Source of the DNA: Lysobacterales bacterium 63-13
Lineage (GTDB): Bacteria; Pseudomonadota; Gammaproteobacteria; Xanthomonadales; Rhodanobacteraceae
Reading direction: 5' to 3'
NCBI GenBank assembly: GCA_001899855.1
Contig: MKWR01000004.1
Span: forward strand, 124,001-188,000
Length of the DNA stretch: 64,000 nucleotides
Position numbers and translations under genes: made by a program
Shown: positions 29,905-46,253 of the stretch, in pieces
Layout of the letters: each line of letters opens with the position of its first letter
How positions within the stretch are numbered: position 1 is the stretch's first letter
The notes under the pieces: model-generated
Told to the model about the DNA's origin: nothing
The model's input: the letters and a program-made list of their open reading frames with translations, nothing else
The model's database searches: none

Positions 29905-29927
29905 GTCAGCGCGCAGCGCTGACCCAC
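29905..29927 (-). repeat. Isolated REP-like palindrome (GTGG head), same family as the RAYT-flanking arrays
   Basis: gtcagcgc-gca-gcgctgac-ccac; minus strand reads GTGG-GTCAGCGC-TGC-GCGCTGAC. Confidence 0.8.
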
Positions 29928-38065: not shown

Positions 38066-41000
38066 ATGTCCGCCAGCAACGTCCTCGATTCCTTCCATCC
38101 AGCCATTGCCGCCTGGTTTGCGCGCACGTTTGCCGCGCCGACGCCGGCGCAGGTGGAGGCGTGGCCGGCAATCCGCGCCGGGCGTCACACGCTGATCGCG
38201 GCACCGACCGGATCGGGCAAGACCCTTGCTGCGTTTCTTGCCGCAATCGATGGCCTGGTTCGCGAAGGCATGGGTTTCGGCCTGCCTGAACAGACCACGG
38301 TGGTCTATGTGTCGCCCTTGAAGGCGCTGTCCAACGACATCGCCATCAATCTCGAAGCGCCGCTGGCCGGCATCCGCGCCGAGCTTGAACGTCGTGGCCA
38401 CATCAACATCGATATCCGCACCGGCGTGCGTACCGGCGACACGCCGGCGGCCGATCGCCAGCGCATGCTGAAATCTCCGCCGCATATTCTCGTCACCACG
38501 CCGGAATCGCTGTACGTGCTGCTGGGTTCGGAATCGGGCCGGCTGATGCTGGCCGGCACGCGCACGGTCATCGTCGATGAAATCCACGCGATTGCCGATG
38601 ACAAGCGCGGCAGTCATCTGGCCTTGACCCTCGAACGCCTCGAAGCGCTGTGCCAGCGGCGCCTGGTGCGCATCGGCCTGTCGGCGACGCAAAAGCCGAT
38701 CGAGGAGGTCGCGCGCTTCCTCGTCGGCGCCAGTCATGTCGATGCCGAGGGCAGGCCGGATTGCGCCATCATCGATTCCGGTCATGTGCGCGCGCGCGAC
38801 CTGGCCATCGAGATGCCACCCGTGCCGCTCGAAGCGGTGATGTCGAACGAGGCCTGGGAAAGCGTCTACAACCGGCTTGCCGAACTCGTCCAGGCGCATC
38901 GCACGACCCTGGTGTTCGTCAACACGCGGCGCATGGCCGAGCGTGCGGCGCGTCATCTTGGCGAGCGCCTTGGCAAGGAGCAGGTCGCCGCGCATCACGG
39001 CAGCCTCGCCAAGGAGTTGCGCCTGGATGCCGAGCAGCGCCTCAAGCGCGGTGAGCTCATGGTGCTGGTGGCGACCGCCTCGCTGGAGCTCGGCATCGAT
39101 ATCGGCGATGTCGACCTGGTCTGCCAGCTTGGTTCGCCGCACGCGATTGCCGCCTTCCTGCAGCGCGTCGGCCGCTCCGGACACGCCGTTGGCGCGACGC
39201 CGAAAGGCAGGCTGTTTCCGCAATCGCGCGATGACCTGGTCGAATGCGTGGCCCTGCTCGATTGCATCCGCCGCGGCGAACTGGATGCGCTGAAGATTCC
39301 CGTTGCGCCGATCGATGTGCTGGCGCAGCAGATTGTCGCCGAAGTCGCCTGTGGCGAATGGGACGAGGCGGCGCTGTACGACTGGCTGCGCCGCGCCTGG
39401 CCGTATCGCCATCTCGCGCGCAAGGATTTCGATGCCGTCGTGCGCATGCTCGCCGATGGCTTCACGACACGGCGTGGCGCGCGCTCCGGCTACCTGCATC
39501 GTGATGCCGTGCATGGCAAGGTCAAGGCTCGGCGCAATGCGCGGCTGACCGCGCTGACCTCCGGTGGCACGATTCCCGATACCGCCGACTATGCGGTCGT
39601 GGTCGAGCCGGAGGCAGTCACGGTCGGCAAGGTGCACGAGGATTTCGCCGTCGAAAGCATGGCTGGCGACATTTTCCAATTGGGCAACACCAGCTATCGC
39701 ATCCTGCGCGTCGAGCGCAGCACGGTACGGGTCGAGAATGCGCACAGCCTGCCGCCGAGCATTCCGTTCTGGATTGCCGAGGCCCCCGGACGCAGCGACG
39801 AGCTGTCGATGGGCGTATCGCGCCTGCGTGCGGAAATCGAGGCGCGGTTGACCGGGAATGGGGAATCGGGAATCGGGAATAGTTGGAGCGCAAGCAAAGA
39901 CGAGGTTCCTGCTCCCGCGGACGCTGCTTCAGGGGTGCAGCGTGGGAATGCGCGAAAGAACGACACCACCCCTGGGCTGGCTCCTGCGAATGCAGGGGAA
40001 GGCATGCGTGCCGCGTGTGCCTGGTTGATCGATACGGTGGGCATCGATGCAGTCGCCGCGCAGCAGCTGGTCGACTATCTGGCGCGTGCACGCAATGCGC
40101 TCGGTGTGCTGCCGACGCGTCGGCAGATCGTCATGGAGCGTTTCTTCGACGAATCCGGCGGTACCCAGTTGATCGTGCATTCGCCATTTGGCAGTCGCAT
40201 CAACAAGGCTTGGGGCCTGGCCCTGCGCAAACGCTTTTGTCGTTCGTTCAATTTCGAACTGCAGGCGGCGGCGACCGAGGATGCCATCATCCTTTCGCTG
40301 TCGACCAGCCACAGCTTTCCGCTGATCGAGGTGTCGCGTTACCTGCATTCGACGACGGCGCAGGACATCCTCGTCCAGGCCCTGCTCGATGCGCCGCTGT
40401 TTGGCGTGCGCTGGCGCTGGGCGGCGACCACGGCTCTGGCCCTGCCGCGCTTTGCCGGCGGGCAGAAGATCGCACCGCAACTGCAGCGCATGAAATCCGA
40501 GGACCTGCTTGCCACGGTGTTTCCGGATCAGGTCGCCTGTCTCGAAAACATCGTCGGCGAACGGCAGATTCCCGATCACCCCCTGGTCGCGCAGACGCTC
40601 CACGATTGCCTGCACGAGGCAATGGACGTGGAAGGCTGGCTCGATGTACTGCGCGGTCTTGAGAGCGGCAGCATCGGCATCGTCGCGCGCGACCTGCCCG
40701 AACCTTCGCCGCTCGCCGCGGAAATCCTCGGCGCGCGGCCGTATGCCTTCCTCGATGATGCGCCGCTGGAGGAACGCCGCACCCAGGCCGTGCAAATGCG
40801 CCGCTGGAGCGATCCCGAATCGAACGAGGATCTGGGTGCGCTCGATCTGGCTGCGATCGAAGCCGTGCGCGAGGAAGCCTGGCCCGATCCGCGCGATGCC
40901 GACGAGATGCACGAAACCCTCATGGGCATCGGCTTTGTCAGCGCCGATGAAGCCGAGAGCCAGCCGCAATGGGCGGACTGGTTGATCCGGCTCGCGGCAC

Positions 41001-42700
41001 AGCAGCGCGCCACGCGGATCTCCGTGGCCGGGAGTCGGGAATGGGGAATCGGGAATGGAGAAGGCGTCACGATTGCAGGAGGTCCCATTTTCGAGGCGAC
41101 TGCAGTCGCTCCTGCTACAGCCCAACCGCTTCCTGCAGAGAGTGTCGGGAGTCTCTGGATTGCTGCCGAAAAACTGCCGCAACTCCAGGCGCTTCATCCG
41201 ACAGCGGTCATGCAACCCGCCATCCAAGCACCCGCCGAATTCGCCGCCATCCAGTGGACGCACGAGGAGGCGCTGATCGATCTGCTGCGTGCGCGCATGA
41301 CCGCACTTGGACCGGTCACGGCCACTCGGCTTGCCGGGATGATGGCAGTCATGGCGACTGAAATCGCGGCAGCGCTGGTCGCGCTGGAAACCCAGGGCTT
41401 CGTCATGCGCGGCCAGTTCACACCGGCGGCGACCGGCGAGGAATGGTGCGAACGCCATCTGCTCGCGCGCATCCATCGCTACACGCTGAAGCGCCTGCGT
41501 CGTGAAATCGAACCGGTGGCGGCGCGCGACTACATGCGCTTTCTGTTCGACTGGCATCGCCTCGCACCGGGCACGCAGGCGCGTGGGCCGGATGCGCTGG
41601 CCAGCGTGCTCGGACAACTCGAAGGTTTCGAATCGGCAGCCGGTGCCTGGGAAACCGAACTCCTGCCCGCACGCATCGCCGATTATTCGATCCACTGGCT
41701 CGATGAACATTGTCGCAGTGGCCGCATTGTCTGGACGCGCTTTGCCAGCGCCGCATCGGCGAATCGCGAGCGCGCGACCGGCCCGCTGCGCAGCACGCCG
41801 ATCCTCATCCTGCCGCGACGCAGCCTGCGCATCTGGGCGCAGTTGGCATCGGCCTCCACGCAAGGGAGCGTTACCACCTCCTCGCGTGCCGCAGCCGTGC
41901 TTGAGCACCTGCGCACGCAAGGCGCTTCGTTTTTCGACGAGATTGCCCACGGCACGCGCTTGCTGAAGGTCGAACTCGAAGAGGCACTCGGCGAACTGGT
42001 CAGTCGCGGCCTGGTCAACGCCGACAGCTTTGCCGGCCTGCGCGCCTTGCTGGTACCAGCGGGCAAACGCTCGCGGCACGCGCGGCGCACGCATCGGGCC
42101 AACCTGATGGGCATCGAAGATGCGGGGCGCTGGGCGCTGACGCGCGTGCCGGCGGCCGAGGTTGTGGATCCAGGGCAGGATTCCGGCAAGGATTCGCTCG
42201 AGCATGTCGCGCGCACCTTGCTGCGGCGCTACGGCGTGATCTGCTGGCGTCTGCTGGCGCGTGAATCCGCCTGGTTGCCGCCGTGGCGCGAACTGCTGCG
42301 CGTCTATCGGCAGCTTGAGGCGCGCGGCGAGATCCGTGGCGGGCGTTTCATTGCCGGATTGTCCGGCGAGCAGTTCGCCCTCGCCGAAGCGATCCCGCTG
42401 CTGCGCAAGGCGCGTACGCGGCCGCGTGATGGCAGCAAGGTCGTCATCGCCGCCACCGATCCGCTCAACCTGGTCGGCATACTGGACGCCGGCGTGCGCG
42501 TGCCGGCGCTGCTCGGCTCGCGCATCCTGCATGTCGATGGCGTGGCGGTCGCCGGCCTCGTTGGCGGCAAGGCCGTGCGTCTCGATGGCAGCAGCGAGGC
42601 GCTTCCTGCAGACTGGCAACAGGCGCTGCTCCTGCGTGGCCGACGCGACTTTGCGGCAGGCAGCGGCTCAGCAACGCAGGAACGAAGCCACATTCAGTGA
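38066..42700 (+). CDS. lhr: Lhr-type large ATP-dependent helicase, full length with C-terminal domain (1544 aa)
   Basis: Walker [32 protein letters not shown], Lhr core WH domain and long C-terminal region. Confidence 0.93.
39853..39880. repeat. GGGAAT(N)GGGAAT dispersed repeat inside the lhr reading frame
   Basis: gggaatggggaatcgggaatcgggaata; translated as GNGESGIGN. Confidence 0.7.
41034..41120. repeat. Second repeat block inside lhr: GGGAAT repeat plus GCGACTGCAGTCGC palindrome
   Basis: gtcgggaatggggaatcgggaatgg, then tcgaggcgactgcagtcgctcctgctacag; translated [10 protein letters not shown]...EATAVAPAT. Confidence 0.65.
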
Positions 42701-42707
42701 ACTCCTG

Positions 42708-43229
42708 CTTGCTGACTGCTCCTGTCCTTGGTGGGTTCGATCTGTGATCGAACATTTCTGCCCAGGTTGGGGAAGGAGCGTCAGCGCACAGCGCCGACCC
42801 ACAAAAGCAGGTTCTTGCTGACTGTTCCTGCCCTTGGTGGGTTCGATCTGTGATCGAACATTTCTGCCCAGGTTGGGAGAGGAGCGTCAGCGCACAGCGC
42901 CGACCCACAAAAGCAGGTTCTTGCTGACTGCTCCTGCCCTGGGTGGGTTCGATCTGTGATTCAACATTTCTGCCCAGGTTGGGGAAGGAGCGTCAGCGCA
43001 CAGCGCCGACCCACAAAAGCAGGTTCTTGCTGACTGCTCCTGCCCTTGGTGGGTTCGATCTGTGATCGAACATTTCTGCCCAGGTTGGGGGTGGAGCGTC
43101 AGCGCACAGCGCCGACCCACAAAAGCAGGTTCTTGCTGACTGCTCCTGTCCTTGGTGGGTTCGATCTGTGATCGAACATTTCTGCCCAGGTTGGGGAAGG
43201 AGCGTCAGCGCACAGCGCCGACCCACAAG
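42708..43229. repeat. Tandem array of five 106-bp units, each a 72-bp two-REP mosaic (BIME-like) plus 34-bp spacer
   Basis: gtgggttcgat starts at 42731, 42837, 42943, 43049 and 43155, exactly 106 bp apart; each unit carries GTGG-GTTCGATC-TGT-GATCGAAC and inverted GTCAGCGC-ACA-GCGCCGAC-CCAC. Confidence 0.95.
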
Positions 43230-43266
43230 GTGGCGCTGATTAACAAAATATGCACATCTTCACCAA

Positions 43267-43773
43267 TTACCTCTCAATCAGGCTCTCTGCCGCGATAGAG
43301 CCGGCCATCGGTCCATGGGGTGGGGAAGCCCATATCGCCCACCAGTAAGGGTAGTCGACCACGCGCGAAACCAGCCCAGCTCGCAGCGGGTTTGCGATCA
43401 AGTAGCGGGCCTGTTGGCGCAGATCTTCATCGGCGCGGATCTGGTGTTCGTAGTAGCCGGGCTGCCAGATTGGCAAGCGTAATCCTGCATTCGCCTGCAG
43501 TCCCCGGCTCGCATTGCCCTTGGTGGCGGCCATCAGTGACGAGAGTTTGCTTCCATCAGCAAGCGTCAATAGCCAATGCACGTGATTGGGCATGACAACC
43601 CAAGCCAGCGAGTGACAGTATCCAAGTCGCGTGCTTCGATGCATCGCATGGATGATCTGCGTGGCTGCATTCGCTTCGATGAAGATCGGCCTGCGATCGT
43701 GTGCACAGAAGGTCAGCACATAGCTGTGATTGGTCGCCGATCGGCGATTCCTGGTGAGTGCAGCGTAGGACAT
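43267..43773 (-). mobile_element. REP-associated tyrosine transposase (RAYT), IS200-like Y1/HUH family, 168 aa
   Basis: HUH motif VVMPNHVHWLLTLADG, WQPGYYEHQIRADEDLRQQARYLIANPLRAGLV with probable catalytic Tyr; flanked by REP arrays. Confidence 0.92.
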
Positions 43774-43866
43774 CGGGAAAGGTTGCGATAAACCTCTGCC
43801 GCTATCGATGTCGGGATACGGATTTTTCTGTAGGAAATCGCTGACCCTTGATGGGCTTGGAGAAGC

Positions 43867-44230
43867 GTCAGCGCACAGCGCTGACCCACAAGGCAGAGCT
43901 GATCCGCAGGGCCGTGCTGATCCACAAAGACCGATGCTTGCTGGGTGCCCCTGCTCCGAGTGGGTTCGATCGGTGATCGAACTTTTCTGGGCAGGTTGGA
44001 GGGGGAGCGTCAGCGCACAGCGCTGACCCACAAGGCAGAGCTGATCCACAAGGCCGTGCTGATCCACAAAGACCGATGCTTGCTGGGTGCTCCTGCCCTG
44101 AGTGGGTTCGATCTGTGATCAAACATTTCTGGGCAGGTTGGAGGGGGAGCGTCAGCGCACAGCGCCGACCCACAAGGCAGAGCTGATCCACAAGGCCGTG
44201 CTGATCCACAAGGCAGGGCGGATCCACAAA
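43867..44230. repeat. Second REP/BIME array (142-bp period): one single REP and two 72-bp BIMEs, with 18-bp tandem repeats in the spacers
   Basis: gtcagcgc arms at 43867, 44009 and 44151 (142-bp steps); BIMEs 43960-44031 and 44102-44173; spacers contain repeated acaaggc..gctgatcc units. Confidence 0.92.
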
Positions 44231-44267: not shown

Positions 44268-44915
44268 TCAGTCGGCCTCGCCGGTCAGCACGATGTCGGC
44301 GCGCCGCGCGGCAAACAGGCCGACGGTGACCACGCCGACAATCTGGTTGATCGCGCTTTCCAGCGCGGGCGGATCGGTGATGCGCAGATTGTGCACATCG
44401 AGGATCCAGTTGCCGTTGTCAGTGGTGACGCCATCGCGCCAGACCGGCTGGCCGCCAAGCAGGACCAGCTGGCGCGCGACATGACTGCGTGCCATCGGAA
44501 TCACCTCGACCGGCAACGGAAAGCGACCCAGCACGTCGACGCGCTTGCTCGGATCGATGATGCAGACGAATTGCCGCGATGCCGCGGCAATGATCTTCTC
44601 GCGCGTCAGCGCCGCGCCGCCGCCCTTGATCAGGCAACGCTGCGGATCGCACTCGTCGGCACCATCGACATACAGGGCGAGTTCGCCGGTGGCGTTGAGG
44701 TCGACGACTTCGATGCCGCGCTGCTTGAGCAGGCGGGTTGATTGCTCCGAGCTGGAGACGGCGGCTTCGATATCGCCGCGCCGCTCGCCCAGTGCATCGA
44801 TGAAGTGTGCAACCGTCGAGCCAGTGCCGACGCCGATGATCATGCCGGGTTCCACGTAACGCATGGCTGCGCGCGCCGCGCGTCGCTTGCCTTCTTCGTT
44901 TGCCATTGTCGCCAC
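44268..44915 (-). CDS. rpiA: Ribose-5-phosphate isomerase A
   Basis: [45 protein letters not shown]. Confidence 0.96.
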
Positions 44916-46035: not shown

Positions 46036-46210
46036 TTGCCGCAGAGAGAGAAGAGAGAGGCGTCCTCCGCTGTGCCGATGCACATCGAACGACCTTGAAC
46101 CAAATGGTTCAGGTGGGAGAGCTTTGCGTCGTCATCAGGCTTTCCGCTCGGGGCGGACTTGCGCACAGACGTTCGCGTGGCTGTCCCGGGGTCGATACAG
46201 GAACAAGGCA
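46036..46210 (-). ncRNA. ssrS: 6S RNA (ends approximate)
   Basis: Between zapA and the 5-FCL gene (conserved location); minus strand contains gtccgccccgagcggaaagcctgatgacgacgc and cacctgaaccatttggttcaagg, matching E. coli 6S signatures. Confidence 0.85.
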
Positions 46211-46253
46211 AAATGTTGAATGCGCTGTCGAACACTGCCGAGGACACCGGCGT

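Follow-up and report, generated by a model that had tools for sequence, protein, structure and literature searches.

Between an lhr-like helicase gene and rpiA, the 64,000-nucleotide stretch of DNA analyzed here (the window) carries what is very probably a REPtron, i.e., a single-copy, domesticated HUH/Y1 transposase (RAYT, or TnpAREP) accompanied by its cognate REP repeats. The repeats come in two types, alpha and beta, and lie on both sides of the transposase gene. The features of the locus, and one REP found elsewhere in the window, are as follows (window positions, with the strand in parentheses).

29905..29927 (-): lone beta REP, away from the RAYT locus
38066..42700 (+): left neighbor, open reading frame, lhr-like helicase gene (named from sequence)
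42708..43237 (no strand): BIME array to the left of the gene, made up of five 106-bp units, each an alpha REP (+) followed by a beta REP (-)
42731..42753 (+): alpha REP 1, GTGG-GTTCGATC-TGT-GATCGAAC; other left-array alpha REPs at 42837, 42943, 43049 and 43155
42780..42802 (-): beta REP 1, GTGG-GTCGGCGC-TGT-GCGCTGAC; other left-array beta REPs at 42886, 42992, 43098 and 43204
43267..43773 (-): RAYT (TnpAREP) gene, 168 aa; HUH histidines H64/H66, catalytic Tyr124; NF047646, Y1_Tnp, 4er8 fold
43867..43889 (-): single beta REP, upstream of the RAYT start
43960..44031 (no strand): right pair 1, alpha at 43960-43982 (+) and beta at 44009-44031 (-)
44102..44173 (no strand): right pair 2, alpha at 44102-44124 (+) and beta at 44151-44173 (-)
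44268..44915 (-): right neighbor, open reading frame, rpiA (named from sequence; genus orthologues 79-91% identical)

The units of the left array start at positions 42708, 42814, 42920, 43026 and 43132 and are 93-97% alike, and the two pairs on the right are spaced 142 bp apart. These coordinates confirm what an earlier, sequence-only reading of the window had reported, namely, five REP pairs on one side of the gene and two pairs plus a single REP on the other. The same reading had drawn the locus from 42708 to 44230; arrays are indeed present on both sides, but the last full REP ends at 44173, and the remainder consists of partial REP-like copies (GCTGATCCAC...). Alpha REPs (consensus GTGG-GTTCGATC-tGt-GATCGAAC) and beta REPs (consensus GTGG-GTCrGCGC-TGy-GCGCTGAC) are both 23 nt long; their 8-bp stem abuts the head, and their 3-nt loop has a G in the middle. 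Folded as single-stranded DNA, alpha REP 1 reaches -6.8 kcal/mol (z -7.6) and beta REP 1 -7.5 kcal/mol (z -3.9). Chance is excluded as the origin of these hairpins, since a pattern consisting of GTRG, an 8-bp stem and a 3-nt loop, with at least 7 of 8 positions paired, was found 15 times in the window, versus a mean of 0.75 in shuffled windows; 14 of the 15 are located at the RAYT locus. A degenerate beta pattern matched nine times in the window, versus 0.00 in 100 shuffles.

The window protein scores 139.9 bits against the NCBIfam equivalog for REP-associated tyrosine transposases (NF047646; cut-off, 80) and, at 43267-43773, 36.9 bits against the Y1_Tnp profile, in agreement with its first identification. 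The sole solved protein matched by sequence, over 104 residues, is E. coli TnpAREP bound to a REP hairpin (4er8), and a fold search with the AlphaFold model (pLDDT 88) returned the same structure on top (E 6.5e-11), followed by the ISDra2 and IS608 transposases. H64, H66 and Tyr124 are invariant among 43 aligned homologues. The locus looks as intact as had been proposed. Position 63, directly before the first HUH histidine, is an asparagine in the window RAYT and an aspartate in all 42 other aligned homologues, a substitution (D63N) that might, judging from the alignment, confer unusual or reduced activity. The protein carries the motifs NHVH, WQ and YLIANP, whereas DH[LF]H, WQ and YI[VI]ANP have been published for group 3 (subclass 2.5) RAYTs (PMC6006769 Table 1); the WQ motif is the same, the tyrosine motif nearly so, and the HUH motif is different. 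The short, perfect palindromic REP of that group is also present in the window (8-bp stem, 3-nt loop), and the window RAYT probably belongs to Bertels group 3. In a tree, a 100/100 branch separates it from E. coli RayT and remote Y1 proteins; its place among the REP-flanked RAYTs is not fixed by this tree.

Pattern searches of the whole genome yielded 25 alpha and 29 beta REPs (54 in total, in 14 clusters), numbers that, being derived from pattern and DNA searches of a 36-contig draft, are minima. The genome-wide excess expected of a REP family is there, with 39 of the 54 REPs located outside the RAYT locus and 13 clusters devoid of a RAYT gene; the clusters are mostly extragenic, i.e., outside likely coding frames according to a rough codon-position test. 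At 36 of 39 neighboring steps, an alpha REP is joined to a beta REP in the opposite orientation. No other Y1_Tnp gene is present in the 3.75-Mb assembly, and the window RAYT is a domesticated, single-copy gene that does not transpose as a unit. Equivalog, fold, single copy and cognate REP population together bear out the original RAYT/REPtron identification. The repeats had been regarded as the probable cognate REPs of the transposase, and they still look so; as a refinement, they fall into two types rather than a single one.

The alpha and beta stems differ at four of eight base pairs, with both sides changed each time. Across REP variants, 96.3% of stem cells are paired, versus 76.2% in shuffles, although the paired changes mostly reflect the single alpha/beta divide, and the counts thus do not stand for many independent events. 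There is hardly any change across the variants in the head, the closing pair or the loop G. On the 3' side, a CT is found within 6 nt of 44 of the 54 REPs, and a CA or CC is found there for nine more. In an array of eight REPs elsewhere (G000:C29:229592-230004), GCGG replaces GTGG in three alpha REPs, a head variant that is common within that array.

Neither the alpha nor the beta pattern had a single match in 60 related genomes (61 were examined in all), and a reversed control pattern had none in the window's own genome. The closest RAYTs in the genus, those of G004, G005 and G009 (39-45% identity to the window RAYT), likewise stand among multi-copy, two-sided REP arrays, but their REP is a different one (GTAG-AGCGGAG-CTTG-CTCCGCT), present in 315, 176 and 248 copies, respectively, with no copy in the eight remaining genomes searched. 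One of these RAYTs, that of G005 (L027:1477-1932), has a phenylalanine in place of the catalytic tyrosine (ARFMVPNP) and, from its sequence, has probably lost its activity; the genome still holds its 176 cognate REPs. In four congeners, lhr lies directly beside rpiA with no RAYT in between, and from this gene order we infer that the window RAYT was probably gained at the lhr-rpiA junction in its own lineage; loss in those four congeners is possible. Given the absence of the alpha and beta REPs from 60 relatives, the other REP of the congeners and the RAYT-free lhr-rpiA junction, the RAYT gene and its two REP types look like a species-specific cognate pair. In two congeners (L166 and L167), the lhr-rpiA intergenic region contains GTAGGAGC-type inverted palindromes of yet another REP kind.

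The locus is a real, well-formed REPtron that is ordinary in kind. Two of its properties had been thought unusual, and neither is. The GTGG head falls within the published definition of a REP head, GT(A/G)G; REPs that begin with GTGG are numerous in Pseudomonas and also occur in Stenotrophomonas (PMC2817692, PMC3686654), and at least six of the RAYT loci that we fetched have mostly GTGG heads. As to long arrays on both sides, BIME-2 lies to either side of rayT in E. coli, and one-third of examined RAYTs adjoin BIMEs (PMC2817692); two-sided arrays longer than the one in the window were found in Zoogloea (7+10), at L121 (5+9) and in two congeners (6+6 and 10+4). RAYT homologues in the genus and in the named genomes bear flanking REPs of their own, none being detected, with a strict detector, at about half of the loci.

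Among the characterized systems, REPtron Sm of S. maltophilia (group 3, subclass 2.5, with the Smal4/SM8 REP; PMC8266576) resembles the window in having a 23-nt REP with an 8-bp stem abutting the head and a 3-nt loop, as well as a RAYT of similar size. It differs in its GTAG head, its GCT loop and its single REP type, and its RAYT has DH[LF]H in place of NHVH. The C-terminal tail of the window protein, modeled with low confidence, is also the longer of the two. A REP of the Smal4/SM8 kind, GTAG-TGCCGGCC-GCT-GGCCGGCA, flanks L109, the RAYT of which is 44% identical to that of the window. The E. coli rayT (yafM)/BIME-2 system shares with the window a single-copy RAYT, two-sided arrays and two inverted REP types (PMC2817692), but this group 2 system has long, bulged stems and a GTAG head, and its protein is only remotely alike. 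Two REP types per RAYT have been described for E. coli and for Marinomonas.

Whereas the protein's family, its fold and catalytic residues, the architecture of the REPs, their paired stem changes, their dispersal in inverted pairs and restriction to one genome, and the absence of the gene from the junction in congeners are direct observations, what the window RAYT does to its REPs (binding, cleavage, strand transfer and mobilization) is modeled on the biochemistry of E. coli, S. maltophilia and Marinomonas. By that analogy, the RAYT would most likely bind one folded REP strand via the GTGG head and the G at the center of the small loop. Tyr124 would then cut beside the hairpin, probably at the nearby CT and perhaps at CA or CC, and the cut strand would be rejoined, such that REP pairs could be copied or moved to extragenic sites and the arrays beside the gene lengthened or shortened, while the enzyme would not mobilize its own gene. 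The cut site is CT in both E. coli and S. maltophilia, and in Marinomonas, GTGG heads shifted cutting to CC/CA (PMC8266576). In S. maltophilia, loop and head count for more than the sequence of the stem, a result that fits the kept head and loop and the changed stems seen here. Two REP types that retain head and loop are what this biochemistry would predict, and the locus is a clean case of this, a single RAYT apparently serving two REP types with half of their stem pairs different. The RAYT did not necessarily place each copy: in six clusters, REPs are nested in a second repeat, described below.

An alternative that we consider unlikely, albeit not negligibly so, is that the RAYT is a relic, its gene intact but its product inactive, with REP copy numbers changing only by slippage, recombination or joint spread with other repeats. 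An active REP family would be expected to have more than 54 copies, and the D63N substitution, the nesting of some REPs in a second repeat family and the precedent for decay in G005 all point in the same direction. Against this, the reading frame is open and every catalytic residue is conserved; the high similarity of the array units suggests recent turnover, although slippage alone could suffice for that. Much less plausible is that the gene and the hairpins at its ends make up an ordinary IS200/IS605 insertion sequence, a possibility that the sequence-only reading had named: the HUH/Y1 fold is the same, with ISDra2 and IS608 as the next structural matches, and there is a weak match to the IS200 model NF033573, but since that score (31.6 bits) is below the cut-off of 55 and the genome holds one copy of the gene, we ruled out an IS200 element. 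In addition, 13 further clusters have the hairpins but not the gene, and the GTRG head and the inverted pairs are REP features. Equally improbable is that the palindromes have nothing to do with the adjoining transposase and serve as transcription terminators or RNA structures, since, despite lying between convergent genes and at the ends of genes, they have no T-tract, match no RNA family in an Rfam scan of the RAYT/REP locus, keep a GTGG head outside the stem, alternate as inverted pairs and are missing from relatives that retain the same genes. Elsewhere in the window, 6S RNA (RF00013) was found at 46060-46246 (-), with 74.9 bits.

Of wider interest than the REPtron itself may be the second repeat family found beside it, which was reached via one of the REP clusters (L014); examples of it are L014:1380-1675 and G000:C14:133265-133418. 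This repeat consists of tandem units of ~48 bp (CATCGCCTGCAACTGCTCCTGCGTTGCAGGCATACAGGCCATCCATGG) that form a strong single-stranded DNA hairpin (z about -5), and its first nucleotide directly follows the T-tract that ends an intrinsic terminator (TTTTTTT-ATGGCCATGGATGGCC...). A search pattern containing TTTT matched 25 sites in the window's own genome (G000; L183-L202 and L203-L232). Its occurrence in the congeners is patchy, with 11 sites in G005, 8 in G004 and 1 in G006, and a single genome from another genus has 3; the window contains no copy. A terminator hairpin, which was not part of the search pattern, precedes the T-tract at 29 of 29 sites tested, a few of which are orthologous in two congeners and hence not all independent. 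Of the remaining T-tracts in these loci, 18 of 187 have such a hairpin, as do 6% of positions picked at random. At the L014 site (L014:1669-1696), the congeners G003 (L175) and G008 (L178) keep the same terminator without the repeat; on sequence comparison, this orthologous terminator is an empty site, the edge of which is the terminator T-tract. No gene mobilizing the repeat was found; a group II intron maturase was considered and rejected, as there is one in G000 and none in the repeat-bearing G004, G005 and G006. A narrow literature search, which is no proof of novelty, returned no fitting description, and the family is apparently undescribed.

Six REP clusters (C6 120k and 152k; C17 102k; C27 22k, 195k and 301k) carry a REP cassette within this terminator-abutting repeat, and such nested cassettes are seen in L014, L009, L010, L013, L016 and L017. 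In most of the six, the junctions are similar (GCAACTGCT / cassette / CATCCATGG), and the cassette either was inserted repeatedly into the repeat or spread along with it. We tentatively raise the possibility, which we consider less probable than its converse, that part of the alpha and beta REPs spread not by the action of the RAYT but as passengers in a second mobile repeat that inserts precisely at the ends of intrinsic terminators; if so, the spread of REPs in this genome would be divided between two unrelated systems.
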